From positions 1-62,086 of IMG/VR virus record IMGVR_UViG_3300009093_000013: 62,086 nucleotides of DNA; one strand, 5' to 3'. The DNA comes from a virus. Positions within the stretch are counted from its first letter, which is position 1. The number at the start of each line of letters is the position of its first letter. The notes beneath the pieces were generated by a model. It was not told where the DNA came from. It saw only the letters and a program-made list of their open reading frames with translations, and ran no database searches. This document shows, piece after piece, positions 21,062 through 60,244 of the stretch. The translations under genes were made by a program, and so were the position numbers.

Positions 21062-22099
21062 TTAGAAGGCCGCGCCGCCGAGGCCGTAGCCCCAGGCTCC
21101 GGATGACGACTTGGCGCAAACGATGTTGTAGCCAAGCACCATCACGCCCTGCTGGCCGATCTGGCCCAAGGGAACCAGCGAGTAGAACCCGGAGAAGTCC
21201 AGGTTCGCGTCCTCGTTGATGTACATGTTGAAATACTTGGTATTGACGGCGAACACGTTGCCGACCGGGACGAAGTGATCGGCGAAGATCGGCACGCCCG
21301 CGACGTTGAGGTTCGGGAAGGACGTTCTGCGGAACGTGCCCATCTCGTACTGCTTGCCGGGATCGACAAACGCCGTTTCAGTCCCGATGAAGTCATTGTT
21401 CAGGGTGGCGTGGTCGGCGGGGTTCATCACCACATAGCTGGGCGATTCACCGCCCGCGTTGTTGGTGACGTAGGTCAGGAAGGCCGACATCTTCGCGCGG
21501 GTGAACCCGGCGGAGAGAGACCAGGGCGCGGCGGCGAGGTTGATGTACTGGCCCTGGAAGGCCGAATTGCTCGGAACCAGCCGGTTGATGCCGCCGTAGG
21601 TCGGGAAGTTGGTCCCGTTGTCGAAGGCATCCTGGAAGCTGTTCGGCAGAAGCGGGTTGTTGCCGTTGTTGGTGAAGAACAGCCGCGCCATGTTCTGGCG
21701 AGTGGTGGCGTACACGTCGTTCATGCGCGCCTTGAGCAGCGGGATGACCGTTTCCGTGGACTGGATGATCGTTTCGCCGAAAGGCAGCGGGACCGGGACG
21801 ACCCAGAAGGCCGTATTCCACTGCCCGTTCTGGATACCGGGCGTGATCACCGGGGCGTTGAAGCCGCCGCCGTAGCCGGTGAACTGGCCCTGGACCATCG
21901 ACTGGCCCTGCATCGGGATCGTGATCTGGTTCTGACCGCCCGCCGATCTCTGCGACCCGCCCAGCATGTAGAACAGGGTCGGCGAGCCGAAATAGAGCTG
22001 GACGAACAGCTTCGGAACGAATGCCCTGCGCGTGACGGAGGTCAGTTCGTTGTTGATGTTGCCGGCGGGCGGTGCCGCACCAAGTCCTGGAATGGGCAT
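21062..22099 (-). CDS. Major capsid protein
   Basis: 345 aa with the length, order and composition of an HK97-fold capsid protein: a Pro/Gly-rich N-terminus, a probable E-loop around residues 55-85 (G-G-Q-N-Q-I-T-I-P-M), a long spine helix near 120-145, and a Y-V-V-M-N-P-A-D motif near 222-229 typical of the P-domain. It follows the scaffold gene and has a strong AAGGAG ribosome-binding site. Confidence 0.85.
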   Translation of the reverse strand: MPIPGLGAAPPAGNINNELTSVTRRAFVPKLFVQLYFGSPTLFYMLGGSQRSAGGQNQITIPMQGQSMVQGQFTGYGGGFNAPVITPGIQNGQWNTAFWVVPVPLPFGETIIQSTETVIPLLKARMNDVYATTRQNMARLFFTNNGNNPLLPNSFQDAFDNGTNFPTYGGINRLVPSNSAFQGQYINLAAAPWSLSAGFTRAKMSAFLTYVTNNAGGESPSYVVMNPADHATLNNDFIGTETAFVDPGKQYEMGTFRRTSFPNLNVAGVPIFADHFVPVGNVFAVNTKYFNMYINEDANLDFSGFYSLVPLGQIGQQGVMVLGYNIVCAKSSSGAWGYGLGGAAF

Positions 22100-22118: not shown

Positions 22119-22712
22119 TCAGCGACCGCCCGACCGAAAGTCGGTAATGGCTTGGCGGATCATGTCGTTTTCGACCATCGGGTCTCCGTCGGCGCCGGCA
22201 GCGAGCAGCTTCTTGAAGTTCTCGTTGTCGCGATCCGATGAGTTGAATGTGTCGAACGGGCCGACGCCGCTGGACTGAGCGACGGGCGGGGGCGGGTTCT
22301 GCTTCTCGAAGTGAGCTGCGGCGACTTCGAGGTTCGCGATCCCGAGCGTCTTGGCGTGTTCCTCGGCCTTCTCGATGCCCTCGTCGGTCCAGCCCTGCTT
22401 GCGGAGAGCGGCCTTCTGGGCGTCCCACTGAGAGGTGAACTGATTGACGAGCTTTTCCTGCTCGCGAGCGGCGGTATCGTCCTCGATCCGCTTCTGAAGC
22501 GCGGCGATGGTCTCGCGCAGCGGCTCGATCTCGCCCCGAATCTGCTCCTTGGCGTCGAGTTCTGGGGTGACGGCGTTCGGATTGACCTCTTTCGCGGCCT
22601 TGGTGAGCAGTTCCCGCGATTTCGGGTTCTGCATCATCTTCGAATACAGCGCCGTCAGGAGCTGCTGGTTCTGGTATTCGGTCTCATCGACCTCAATCGC
22701 GACTTTGGGCAT
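22119..22712 (-). CDS. Capsid scaffolding protein
   Basis: The start at 22712 is chosen because the longer GTG start at 22718 overlaps the upstream stop. The 197-aa protein is Glu/Lys/Gln-rich and helical, with a coiled coil at about residues 50-130. It ends in an Asp/Glu/Arg-rich helix-turn-helix-like tail, the part that usually binds capsid protein. Position immediately upstream of the capsid gene is standard for scaffolds. Confidence 0.75.
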   Translation of the reverse strand: MPKVAIEVDETEYQNQQLLTALYSKMMQNPKSRELLTKAAKEVNPNAVTPELDAKEQIRGEIEPLRETIAALQKRIEDDTAAREQEKLVNQFTSQWDAQKAALRKQGWTDEGIEKAEEHAKTLGIANLEVAAAHFEKQNPPPPVAQSSGVGPFDTFNSSDRDNENFKKLLAAGADGDPMVENDMIRQAITDFRSGGR

Positions 22713-22714
22713 GA

Positions 22715-22882
22715 TCACGCCTTATTCGGGACGTGAACGATGGACATCGGCGGCGACTGCGGAGACTGGCTCGGCAGATTGTCCTTCCGGCCGGCGATCT
22801 GGAGTTCGTCCATGCTGACGCGGACGATCATGCTGTCCGAGGTCGGCACCTTCTTGGTCGAATCCTGAAAAATGCTGGGCAT
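22715..22882 (-). CDS. Small phage protein between portal and scaffold genes
   Basis: The ATG at 22882 follows AGGAG by 7 nt; the longer frame to 22960 overlaps the upstream gene and looks non-coding. The product (55 aa) has a short beta-rich middle and a Ser/Gln/Pro-rich end. Function unknown. Confidence 0.6.
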   Translation of the reverse strand: MPSIFQDSTKKVPTSDSMIVRVSMDELQIAGRKDNLPSQSPQSPPMSIVHVPNKA

Positions 22883-22892
22883 GGCTTGACTC

Positions 22893-23306
22893 CTATGCCG
22901 CGCGGGGCATCTGGGGCGGGGCGGCGGGGGGCTGGCCGGGCTGCTGGGCAGGAGCGCCACCCTGGCGCATCATCTGCATCTGCTGGCCCTGCTTCTGAGC
23001 AGCGATGGTGAGCTGCTGCATGACTTTGAGTTTGTCTTGCCCGGAGACGGAGCCGGGAGGGACCAACTTGGAGAGCTTGGTGATGCCCTCCAGGATGGCC
23101 CGCCCGGACTCCGAACTCGGTCCGACGAGGCTGGCGGCCAGCATTAGGCCATCAACCGCAACCGCCAGGATTTTGACGGCAGCCGCTTCCTGGCCCTTGT
23201 TCTGAGTGGGACCCGTAGCCGGGGAGGAGCCGAATGGCGGCTGACCCGGATTAGGCCCCTGAGAACCGGGGGGCGGTGCTGCTTGTCCTGGGGTTACGTC
23301 GGGCAT
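22893..23306 (-). CDS. Pro/Gln-rich phage protein with hydrophobic core
   Basis: 137 aa: Pro/Gly-rich linker-like ends (about 1-38 and 115-137) flank a helical core with a hydrophobic segment at about residues 45-62 and a Gln/Met-rich helix near 90-110. It sits between the tiny basic peptides and the scaffold, so an assembly or minor virion role is likely. Not recognised. Confidence 0.6.
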   Translation of the reverse strand: MPDVTPGQAAPPPGSQGPNPGQPPFGSSPATGPTQNKGQEAAAVKILAVAVDGLMLAASLVGPSSESGRAILEGITKLSKLVPPGSVSGQDKLKVMQQLTIAAQKQGQQMQMMRQGGAPAQQPGQPPAAPPQMPRAA

Positions 23307-23315
23307 GGGAGGGAA

Positions 23316-23351
23316 TTACTTCCGACCCTTGCGATGGGACTTGCGCCGCAT
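23316..23351 (-). CDS. Tiny basic peptide, second copy (MRRKSHRKGRK)
   Basis: An 11-codon frame plus TAA begins 2 bases after the stop of the first copy. It repeats that peptide's C-terminal R-R-K-S-H-R-K-G-R-K exactly. Nine of 11 residues are Arg, Lys or His or small polar, as in DNA-condensing virion peptides such as microvirus J proteins (analogy only). The codons differ between copies while the peptide is kept, which points to selection on the protein. Confidence 0.6.
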   Translation of the reverse strand: MRRKSHRKGRK

Positions 23352-23353
23352 GA

Positions 23354-23401
23354 TTACTTGCGGCCCTTGCGGTGCGACTTACGGCGCTCACGAATGTCCA
23401 T
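23354..23401 (-). CDS. Tiny basic peptide, first copy (MDIRERRKSHRKGRK)
   Basis: A 15-codon frame with a perfect AGGAGGT ribosome-binding site ending 6 nt before its ATG, one of the strongest in the genome. It lies immediately downstream of the portal gene region and upstream of scaffold and capsid genes. The peptide is almost all Arg, Lys, His, Ser and Glu. Too short for gene callers. Likely roles are DNA binding inside the capsid or a translated leader (inference). Confidence 0.65.
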   Translation of the reverse strand: MDIRERRKSHRKGRK

Positions 23402-23594
23402 TTTGGACCTCCTGTGAATGGGTTGACATCACCCAGGGCTCCTCGTTTCAACCGCCGACCGAATGCTGTCACCAGCACGGGAAGGCAAATTGCCTGGGTC
23501 TGACTACCTATTGCCGTCAAAATGCTTGCGCACACAATATATAGTATGCTACTTAGTGTTTACCTACTGGATGTAGTGTACGGAGTGGCTGTAG

Positions 23595-23780
23595 TTGGCT
23601 GTCGAGCGCGACAACGACCTAGTTCCGAAGCAGGCTGCCGCAATAGTCGGCATGTCTGTTCACTGGCTTTACAAAAAGATCAGAGCTGGGGAGGGGCCGC
23701 GCTACAGGCGGCGCGGTAAATGTATCCTCATTACCAAGGCCGACTTGGCCGAGTGGGATTCTCAGCCAGAAATACGCTAG
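23595..23780 (+). CDS. Excisionase/MerR-type small HTH protein on the opposite strand
   Basis: TTG start at 23595 (a TAG immediately precedes it). The 61-aa product has a helix-turn-helix of the AlpA/excisionase type: V-P-K-Q-A-A-A-I-V-G-M-S then V-H-W-L-Y-K-K-I-R-A-G, a basic wing (Y-R-R-R-G-K) and I-T-K-A-D-L-A-E-W. It is the only rightward gene inside the 30-kb leftward late operon, and its stop shares CTAG with the portal gene stop. It could be a directionality factor or a late regulator. Confidence 0.75.
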   Translation: MAVERDNDLVPKQAAAIVGMSVHWLYKKIRAGEGPRYRRRGKCILITKADLAEWDSQPEIR

Positions 23781-25513
23781 TGGTGGCCTTTGCCGCCTGC
23801 CGCTTTTTCCATGACTTTCGCGAAGGCTTCCGGGTCCTGCTTTTGCAGCGCCGCAAGTTGAGCAGCCTGCGCTTCTTCCCTCTTCGTCAGTCGCTGTAGC
23901 AGCTTCTTCTTGTGCGGGAAGGGCAGTTCTTCGATGCCGGAGTGCGGATCGACCAGATTCGCCTTGAGGCCGAACGCGATCAACTGTTGGTGATCGTCGG
24001 CGAAGATCGGCGAGGACGAATGGCTATCGACCGTCACGCGCCTGTCTTCGGGAATATCGGCCAAAGTAAACTTCGTGGCCTCGATCTTCTCGACTGAATC
24101 GCCAGTGGTCCAATAATTATGCGGGTCTTTCGCTTCCATGAGTGAGAGGCGCAAATCTCCAGCCGCCGCACACTGCCGCTCGACCAAAAGGGATCGATCC
24201 CGCAATCTGGGCGAGGCGGTTTTCATCATCGTGTCAGCATGGACGCCCGCTCTTACGCCAGGTTCGCCTTGGCCGGACAGGATGTTGTCGAAGCCGCCGA
24301 TCATGTTGATGATCTTGACCATGTATTCCAGCATCTGGAGAGCCTGCGTGGGCATTTGAGGCGTGAGGTCCGTCATTGTCGCGCCGGGGGATGCGTTGAT
24401 GAATCCCGCCCCCCTCATCTGCCCATAGCGTTCCTCGGTAATACCGTCGTCACCGGCAAATCCGATGATCTTGTCGATCTGAAGGCCGTACAGGCGTTTT
24501 GTGTCCTCTGCCCAAATCGACAGAAGCTCTTGCGGGGAGATCAGATCCAATAACTCCGACCGGCCCCAGAAATCTCCCCAGGCGCGGTTTGGCTGGATCA
24601 GGGTGTAGGGGTGGAGCATACTCTTCGCCCCGGAAATCAACAGGTTCGACTTCCGCATCCGGGGGGCAATGAGAATATCGGGCTCGATGATCTGGATCGT
24701 GGTGTAGTCGTCTTCGTCCTTCACCCAAAGCTCGTGCATCTTGACCATATCGGCGGTCAATTGGGTTCCCGGAGGTCCGCCCCCGGTATCCGCCGCAAGC
24801 TGCACGATGCCGCCGGGCTGCATCCGGGTCATGCCCACGTCGCTGGTGTTCAGCGGAGAGGTAGACAGGACCGAATGCGAGAAGCTGTTGTATTCGTCGT
24901 CGGCAAGGCCCTTCTTGGAATTGCTCTTGACCTGGCGGAACAGGTAGTCGGCGTTCGGGAGGTGATGAATTCTTCGCCAGACCTCGGGCAGGGACAGGGT
25001 GATGGTCTCGCACATCGCCTCCTGTCTTGAGAGGTCGTTGATATCCTCGCGGTAGACGCCGAACTGCCAGGGCATGACGAGAGAGGACCGGGCGACGTTG
25101 GTTGATTCCTCTCCCTCCTGTTCCGTCCACTGCTTCAGCAGGCAGGAGCCGTACTTGAGGGATTCGAACACGCCCTGACCGAACAGCATGTCGGTGTTAT
25201 TGCGCTCCCAATCCCGCGTGAGAACGTCCGCAGCAACATCCCCCCTTGCGGTGATGTCCGGCGGGTACAGGTTTTCGAAGTCAATGGAAAACCGGAGGTC
25301 GGTCGGGCTGTAGAGATGGGCGGAGAGCCGGTCCAGGTGGGCGTAAAGCAGGTTGATCAGCGAGCGGGCGCTTCCGTCGATCCTGCCGGTCTCGGTGATG
25401 GCGTTGAGAACCCGATAATAGGCCGAGCGCGTGCCCGCAGAGGCCCGACAGATCGCCACGGTTTCGTTGGCGAAATTGATCAGGTCTTTTCTATCGGTCG
25501 GAACGCGCAGCAT
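23777..25513 (-). CDS. Portal protein
   Basis: 578 aa, the usual size for podoviral portal (head-tail connector) proteins, and encoded between terminase and scaffold/capsid genes. The N-terminal half is helical with D-R-L-S-A-H-L-Y-S-P-T-D-L near residues 90-102. A central W-V-K-D-E-D-D-Y region and a C-terminal Lys/Gln/Ala-rich helix (about 535-570) match a wing, clip and crown/barrel plan. It forms the ring through which DNA is packaged and ejected. Confidence 0.85.
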   Translation of the reverse strand: MLRVPTDRKDLINFANETVAICRASAGTRSAYYRVLNAITETGRIDGSARSLINLLYAHLDRLSAHLYSPTDLRFSIDFENLYPPDITARGDVAADVLTRDWERNNTDMLFGQGVFESLKYGSCLLKQWTEQEGEESTNVARSSLVMPWQFGVYREDINDLSRQEAMCETITLSLPEVWRRIHHLPNADYLFRQVKSNSKKGLADDEYNSFSHSVLSTSPLNTSDVGMTRMQPGGIVQLAADTGGGPPGTQLTADMVKMHELWVKDEDDYTTIQIIEPDILIAPRMRKSNLLISGAKSMLHPYTLIQPNRAWGDFWGRSELLDLISPQELLSIWAEDTKRLYGLQIDKIIGFAGDDGITEERYGQMRGAGFINASPGATMTDLTPQMPTQALQMLEYMVKIINMIGGFDNILSGQGEPGVRAGVHADTMMKTASPRLRDRSLLVERQCAAAGDLRLSLMEAKDPHNYWTTGDSVEKIEATKFTLADIPEDRRVTVDSHSSSPIFADDHQQLIAFGLKANLVDPHSGIEELPFPHKKKLLQRLTKREEAQAAQLAALQKQDPEAFAKVMEKAAGGKGHH

Positions 25514-60168: not shown

Positions 60169-60244
60169 TGGTGCTGCCTGCAAGGATTCGAACCCGCGAC
60201 CTGAATCTTACAGGGAAACTGCTCTACCGCTGAGCTAAGGCAGC
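60169..60244 (-). tRNA. tRNA-Thr(UGU)-like gene, degenerate
   Basis: 76 nt. The acceptor stem (GCTGCCT/AGGCAGC) is perfect, CCA is encoded, and the D arm (GCTC...GAGC) and T-loop core TTCGAAT are intact. Canonical numbering gives anticodon TGT, but position 33 is C instead of U. The anticodon stem has two T-T mismatches, and the T arm has one extra base. It may be a decaying copy of a host tRNA, an altered function, or a former attachment site. It overlaps a small gene's 3' end. Confidence 0.6.

Follow-up and report, generated by a model that had tools for sequence, protein, structure and literature searches.

Protein J of the microviruses belongs to ssDNA phages that package their genomes without a terminase motor, measures about 24-40 residues and ends in a capsid-binding C-terminus. 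The adenovirus protein mu (pX) and the baculovirus protein P6.9 are short Arg/Lys-rich chains that act by charge on encapsidated dsDNA. The N protein of phage lambda is longer and is encoded in an early operon. J of phiX174 is described as a DNA-binding protein (PMC7096446, citing Bernal 2004; PMC13386984).

We analysed a 62,086-base virus record from IMG/VR, hereafter the window, in which two tiny basic peptides are encoded in tandem (Table 1). Like J, peptides of this type are very small and strongly basic and are encoded among structural genes, between the portal and the major capsid protein (MCP); by analogy, they would be expected to bind the phosphate backbone of the genome. Unlike J, they comprise 11-19 residues, belong to a 62-kb dsDNA genome with terminase and portal genes and not to an ssDNA T=1 virus, and end in basic residues, with no aromatic or hydrophobic capsid-binding C-terminus. 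An earlier note on this DNA had likened them to J. Their size, charge and company of structural genes agree with this, but the peptides lack the aromatic C-terminus by which J binds the capsid, and the comparison is functional only. Compared with mu and P6.9, the peptides are shorter and often in tandem; those two proteins belong to unrelated eukaryotic viruses, and the likeness is one of charge that need not mean shared ancestry. With the N motif of lambdoid phages they share a short basic segment adjoining structured RNA. Unlike N, they are free peptides in the head block, and any specific RNA partner is putative.

Read leftward, the gene order of the window is terminase, a 198-aa protein, portal, an opposite 61-aa ORF, an RNA leader, the two peptides, the Pro/Gln-rich 137-aa gene, an 81-aa ORF, an acidic 199-aa protein and the MCP. 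The peptides, which follow the portal and precede the MCP, thus open the head block. The terminase matches PF17289 and is 38% identical to that of MW202753, and the MCP is 33% identical to the annotated MCPs of MW202753 and MW202825. The portal protein carries a net charge of -16. It lies about 375 bases upstream of the peptides, with the opposite ORF in between, which qualifies the earlier note's placing of the peptides next to it. The Pro/Gln-rich family was found in 112 distinct loci and is present across the whole lineage; neither it nor the 199-aa protein has a PHROG or Pfam match. Between portal and peptide, three related loci (L007, L010, L011) encode not only the helix-turn-helix-like protein but also another conserved antisense protein, about 115 aa long (MFTLGIVFGTQQQLAFAFKSEENAKKAF...). 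A tRNA gene is located at 60172-60244 on the minus strand of the window (Rfam RF00005, 45.3 bits).

Table 1. Features of the peptide locus in the window, and annotations lying over peptide genes in two related records.
Feature	Position	Strand	Remarks
MCP gene	21062..22099	-	PHROG 9953 major head protein, 3.3e-8
199-aa acidic protein	22119..22718	-	Net charge -9; scaffold-like by position and charge
Pro/Gln-rich 137-aa protein gene	22893..23306	-	Directly downstream of the peptides; without own SD
Peptide gene 2	23316..23351	-	MRRKSHRKGRK; net charge +7; no good SD of its own
Peptide gene 1	23354..23401	-	MDIRERRKSHRKGRK; net charge +6 (K/R minus D/E); ORF behind AGGAGGT
SD of peptide gene 1, AGGAGGT	23407..23413	-	Duplex energy -11.5 kcal/mol
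Structured RNA leader	23431..23500	-	Closing stem P1, inner stems P2 and P3
Helix-turn-helix/excisionase-like 61-aa ORF	23595..23780	+	Between portal and leader; assigned by inspection only
Portal protein gene	23777..25513	-	28% identical to annotated portals of MW202753 and MW202825; anchor for relatives
Antisense annotations over peptide genes	L024 4740-5038; L025 5779-6039		GenBank MW202753, MW202825

The two ORFs are the sole tiny basic ORFs with such sequence in the window; one unrelated Arg-rich frame elsewhere in it has no Shine-Dalgarno (SD) site. On the minus strand, CACAGGAGGTCCAAA precedes gene 1, which reads ATG GAC ATT CGT GAG CGC CGT AAG TCG CAC CGC AAG GGC CGC AAG TAA and, after TC, gene 2 reads ATG CGG CGC AAG TCC CAT CGC AAG GGT CGG AAG TAA, its start being placed 2 bases past the stop of gene 1 (TAA TC ATG). 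Sequence, strand, coordinates, AGGAGGT site and two-base gap are all as the earlier note had them, in a minus-strand reading. The SD named there belongs to gene 1 (-11.5 kcal/mol); gene 2 has no good site (-4.2 kcal/mol), so its translation probably depends on reinitiation. A scan for sigma-70 promoters found nothing. The ten residues shared by the two copies are identical, and the 6 codon bases of 30 that differ are all synonymous third positions; if six changes fell at random, the chance of their all being synonymous, with none nonsynonymous, would be P = 7e-5. The proposal that identical residues under different codons reflect selection is borne out by this count. A repeated DNA signal, such as a pac or cos site, was rejected as an explanation because the copies differ at synonymous third positions only.

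Relatives were collected through the portal protein, first 13 loci and then 80 using an alignment. Those holding the Pro/Gln-rich gene, with near-duplicates removed, make up a set of 64 distinct loci. A tiny basic peptide is encoded between the portal and the Pro/Gln-rich gene, or at the start of that gene, in 62 of the 64; L078 and L096 are the only two of this set in which no such peptide was found. When only SD-preceded ORFs of 8-25 aa with a K/R/H share of at least 50% are counted, the sense strand of the interval holds 62 ORFs in 53 loci, or 1.04 per kb, and its antisense strand a single ORF (0.017 per kb). Elsewhere, 13 ORFs were counted in 943 kb (0.014 per kb), some of which are true peptides just beyond the interval boundary. 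SD-preceded tiny basic ORFs are thus about 70 times denser in the interval than elsewhere. The mean SD energy at peptide starts is -8.6 kcal/mol, against -4.2 in shuffled sequence. Frame and ribosome-binding site are therefore kept among relatives, a check that had been proposed for this locus. Examples of the peptides of relatives are MDIRYRRKRRHGRK, MTRNRKSRRGRRH, MLTYNRRGRRGRRK and METLRYRRGRKHRRK, and a lysine/glycine version also occurs (MAKKTKGKGKKKGKGSK). The C-termini of the peptides are basic, for example RKGRK or GRKHR, and 65 of the peptides have 11-19 residues and net charges of +6 to +9. A phage has one to three peptide genes, with at least two peptide calls in 46 of the 112 distinct loci; this larger set was partly chosen by motif, and its 107 peptide-positive loci are not an unbiased rate. 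Loci with a peptide span a G+C of 0.36-0.67. An artefact of G+C-rich composition was rejected, as the peptides are basic at G+C 0.36-0.5 and the antisense and flanking controls are nearly empty. A C-terminal remnant of a larger protein was likewise rejected, each peptide having an SD and a start. An apparent second peptide family in L064, L069, L073 and L074 was discarded: it consists of out-of-frame ORFs within a charged scaffold-like gene.

Selection on the peptides was estimated from 45 pairs picked by the relatedness of neighbouring genes and not by the peptide, since an earlier estimate (pN/pS 0.33) was biased by its pairs having been chosen by peptide identity. The pairs were aligned ungapped from the C-terminus, a procedure in which indels inflate dN, and gave a dN/dS of 0.47, which corresponds to moderate selection at distance. 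Their synonymous fraction was 0.38; in 300 neutral simulations it averaged 0.27 and never exceeded 0.32. By these measures, which complete the dN/dS analysis of homologues suggested in the earlier note, the peptide is under purifying selection. Sequence, length and K/R usage vary among the peptides compared, and positive charge is the property that is kept. As to coding and selection, the peptide ORFs are almost certainly real, conserved and selected genes of the head block.

We also scanned all IMG/VR contigs blindly for an SD, an ATG and an ending RKGRK-stop. The scan returned 118 places, of which 80 were examined. Seventy-five of these lie in the interval between portal and Pro/Gln-rich gene of this lineage, with portals 25-52% identical to that of the window; the other five comprise four out-of-frame matches and an unrelated ORF. 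The motif is therefore almost specific to one deep lineage. The search turned up no cultured member, and the lineage's named records are two Manatee Springs assemblies, MW202753.1 and MW202825.1. These have the gene order of the window and two homologous tiny basic ORFs each; they differ from it in that the two peptides are of two types and the downstream gene has its own SD. The peptides are unannotated in both records, and the antisense hypothetical proteins UOF81572, UOF81573 and UOF82412, annotated over them, are probably mis-annotations. Relatives also occur in three metagenome-assembled bacterial genomes binned as Verrucomicrobia, Acetobacteraceae and Patescibacteria, a binning that does not settle the host. 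Searches by DNA similarity and of PHROGs, known phage libraries and the literature returned no description of the peptide, which is too short for most family searches; one peptide family search was run on joined pairs.

Our leading reading, held tentatively, is that the peptide neutralises or condenses DNA in the head. A polybasic microprotein family is characteristic of one deep lineage of uncultured phages that have terminase and portal genes. Its members open the head block as first cistrons, preceded by a strong SD and, in the clade of the window, by a structured 5' leader. The peptides would be made in large amounts late in infection; that their region is highly expressed, as the earlier note held, is something we infer. 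They would bind DNA electrostatically and most likely enter the head with it, or coat DNA awaiting packaging, and part of the DNA charge would be neutralised in the manner of microvirus J, adenovirus mu and baculovirus P6.9. Their presence in the virion as DNA-condensing components is, by this analogy, plausible. The points that count for this reading are the near-universal fixed place, the clustering of the blind-scan matches in this lineage, the strong SD, the purifying selection, the kept charge, the copy dosage and the position between portal and MCP. Against it count the lack of a J-like part for binding the capsid and the only moderate selection at distance. The charge demand is large: neutralising 10% of the 124,000 phosphates of 62 kb would by arithmetic take about 950 copies of each window peptide (+6 and +7), so the peptides may also act only partially or locally, e.g. 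on DNA close to the portal. Motor-packaging tailed phages are reported to be distinct from viruses that rely on positively charged protein domains for packing (PMC7096446); if the peptide is packaged, this lineage would depart from that pattern. RNA, host DNA and acidic proteins are equally conceivable partners of a polybasic peptide.

The tiny ORF might instead serve mainly to load ribosomes that reinitiate on the Pro/Gln-rich gene, its basic sequence being secondary. The arrangement of the genes bears directly on this explanation. Two ARRANGEMENTS were seen in the 112 distinct loci: clade A, which includes the window, and clade B. A single peptide is usual in clade A, though two or three occur, and the peptide stop commonly lies 0-20 nt before the Pro/Gln-rich start, which lacks an SD (mean -2.8 kcal/mol, weaker than the -4.2 of shuffled sequence). 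The Pro/Gln-rich gene of clade A, that of the window included, is probably translationally coupled to the peptide ORF, which is moreover the first cistron after a structured leader. Clade B regularly carries a pair of peptides of different type, e.g. MYGRKMKRGRKTRR and MRKGRKGRKGRK, most of which are preceded by an SD. In most loci the Pro/Gln-rich gene starts after a further 64-1091 nt, and it often has its own SD; at some loci of this clade the peptide is lengthened by an in-frame start further upstream. Since the pair is kept despite the distance of that gene and its frequent SD, coupling is not the sole role. Selection at the amino-acid level, the constant charge and the tandem copies, which contribute nothing to coupling, also speak against ribosome loading as the main function. 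We consider it unlikely; among the rivals it is the only one that the data exclude in part. If the peptide neutralises DNA in the head, its ORF would, in the clade of the window, probably also deliver ribosomes to the SD-less Pro/Gln-rich gene.

The leader upstream of the peptides raises a further possibility, an arginine-rich RNA-binding regulator resembling the lambda N motif, with the structured leader or late transcripts as its target. The leader, the SD-less start of the next gene and the clade B pair all go beyond what the earlier note covered. We built a covariance model from six leaders aligned to a structure drawn from single folds; its match in the window spans 23399-23504, and a conserved segment, GGCGGUUGAAACGAGGA, is found at 23456-23440 (GGCGGYUGAAACGAGGA across leaders). 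The model matched six further loci, each match ending exactly at the peptide ATG, with E values from 1.8e-4 to 0.32, the weakest of which are suggestive only. In the resulting 12 leaders, 15 of the 20 pairs are changed on both sides. The covariation score is 0.414, against 0.227 for shuffled alignments (0/500) and at most 0.174 when slid, in an alignment fitted to the structure, which favours the score. Single-sequence folding gave z values of -0.7 to -2.2, for most members not significant, and the covariation is the only support for the structure. RNAalifold on a MAFFT alignment produced a poor leader structure, and the one drawn from single folds worked. Against Rfam, the leader gave no match above the gathering threshold of any family. 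The 12 loci in which a covarying leader runs precisely up to the start codon of the peptide would suit an RNA-binding regulator, as would a conserved element between the two peptides of clade B. However, the clade A leader was not recognised in most peptide-bearing relatives, other subclades having different upstream sequences, and the peptide sequence is kept loosely while its charge is kept tightly. We regard such a regulator as decidedly improbable. The clade B element, GGGTATGGCTGCTTCCCC...AAGTAAGTGGCC, follows a small hairpin in loci such as L104, L135 and L141 and is possibly another structured RNA or a pseudoknot; it had no Rfam match in five loci.

An assembly factor, bridging the acidic scaffold-like protein (net -9) or the portal (net -16) and then lost from or kept in the mature head, would be consistent with the order portal, peptide, Pro/Gln-rich protein, 199-aa protein, MCP and with the acidity of these neighbours, and is in our judgement highly unlikely. 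Least probable is a host-directed late peptide, e.g. one binding the host nucleoid, ribosomes or envelope: short polybasic peptides are commonly host-directed, but host-directed genes are usually more variable, and the place of this one is fixed inside the head block across phages of presumably different hosts.

A DNA-neutralising peptide, if that is what these genes encode, would be unusual for phages that pump DNA by a motor. Were it packaged, some motor-driven phages would supplement small cations with encoded peptides, and the question of capsid pressure and DNA charge would be directly approachable using synthetic peptides. The fuller proposal of lineage-wide, protamine-like head peptides of about a dozen residues, with gene-copy dosage and partly controlled by a new class of RNA leader, is doubtful as a whole. 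The peptide gene would be almost universal in the head block of a large and widespread group of uncultured tailed-type phages, and annotation misses it because it is under 20 codons; leader RNA and peptide together provide a strong sequence signature for finding such viruses. In one relative (L009, 5955-5987), an extra basic ORF with a good SD, MRKMRRKGRR, sits after another small gene and looks like a relocated copy.
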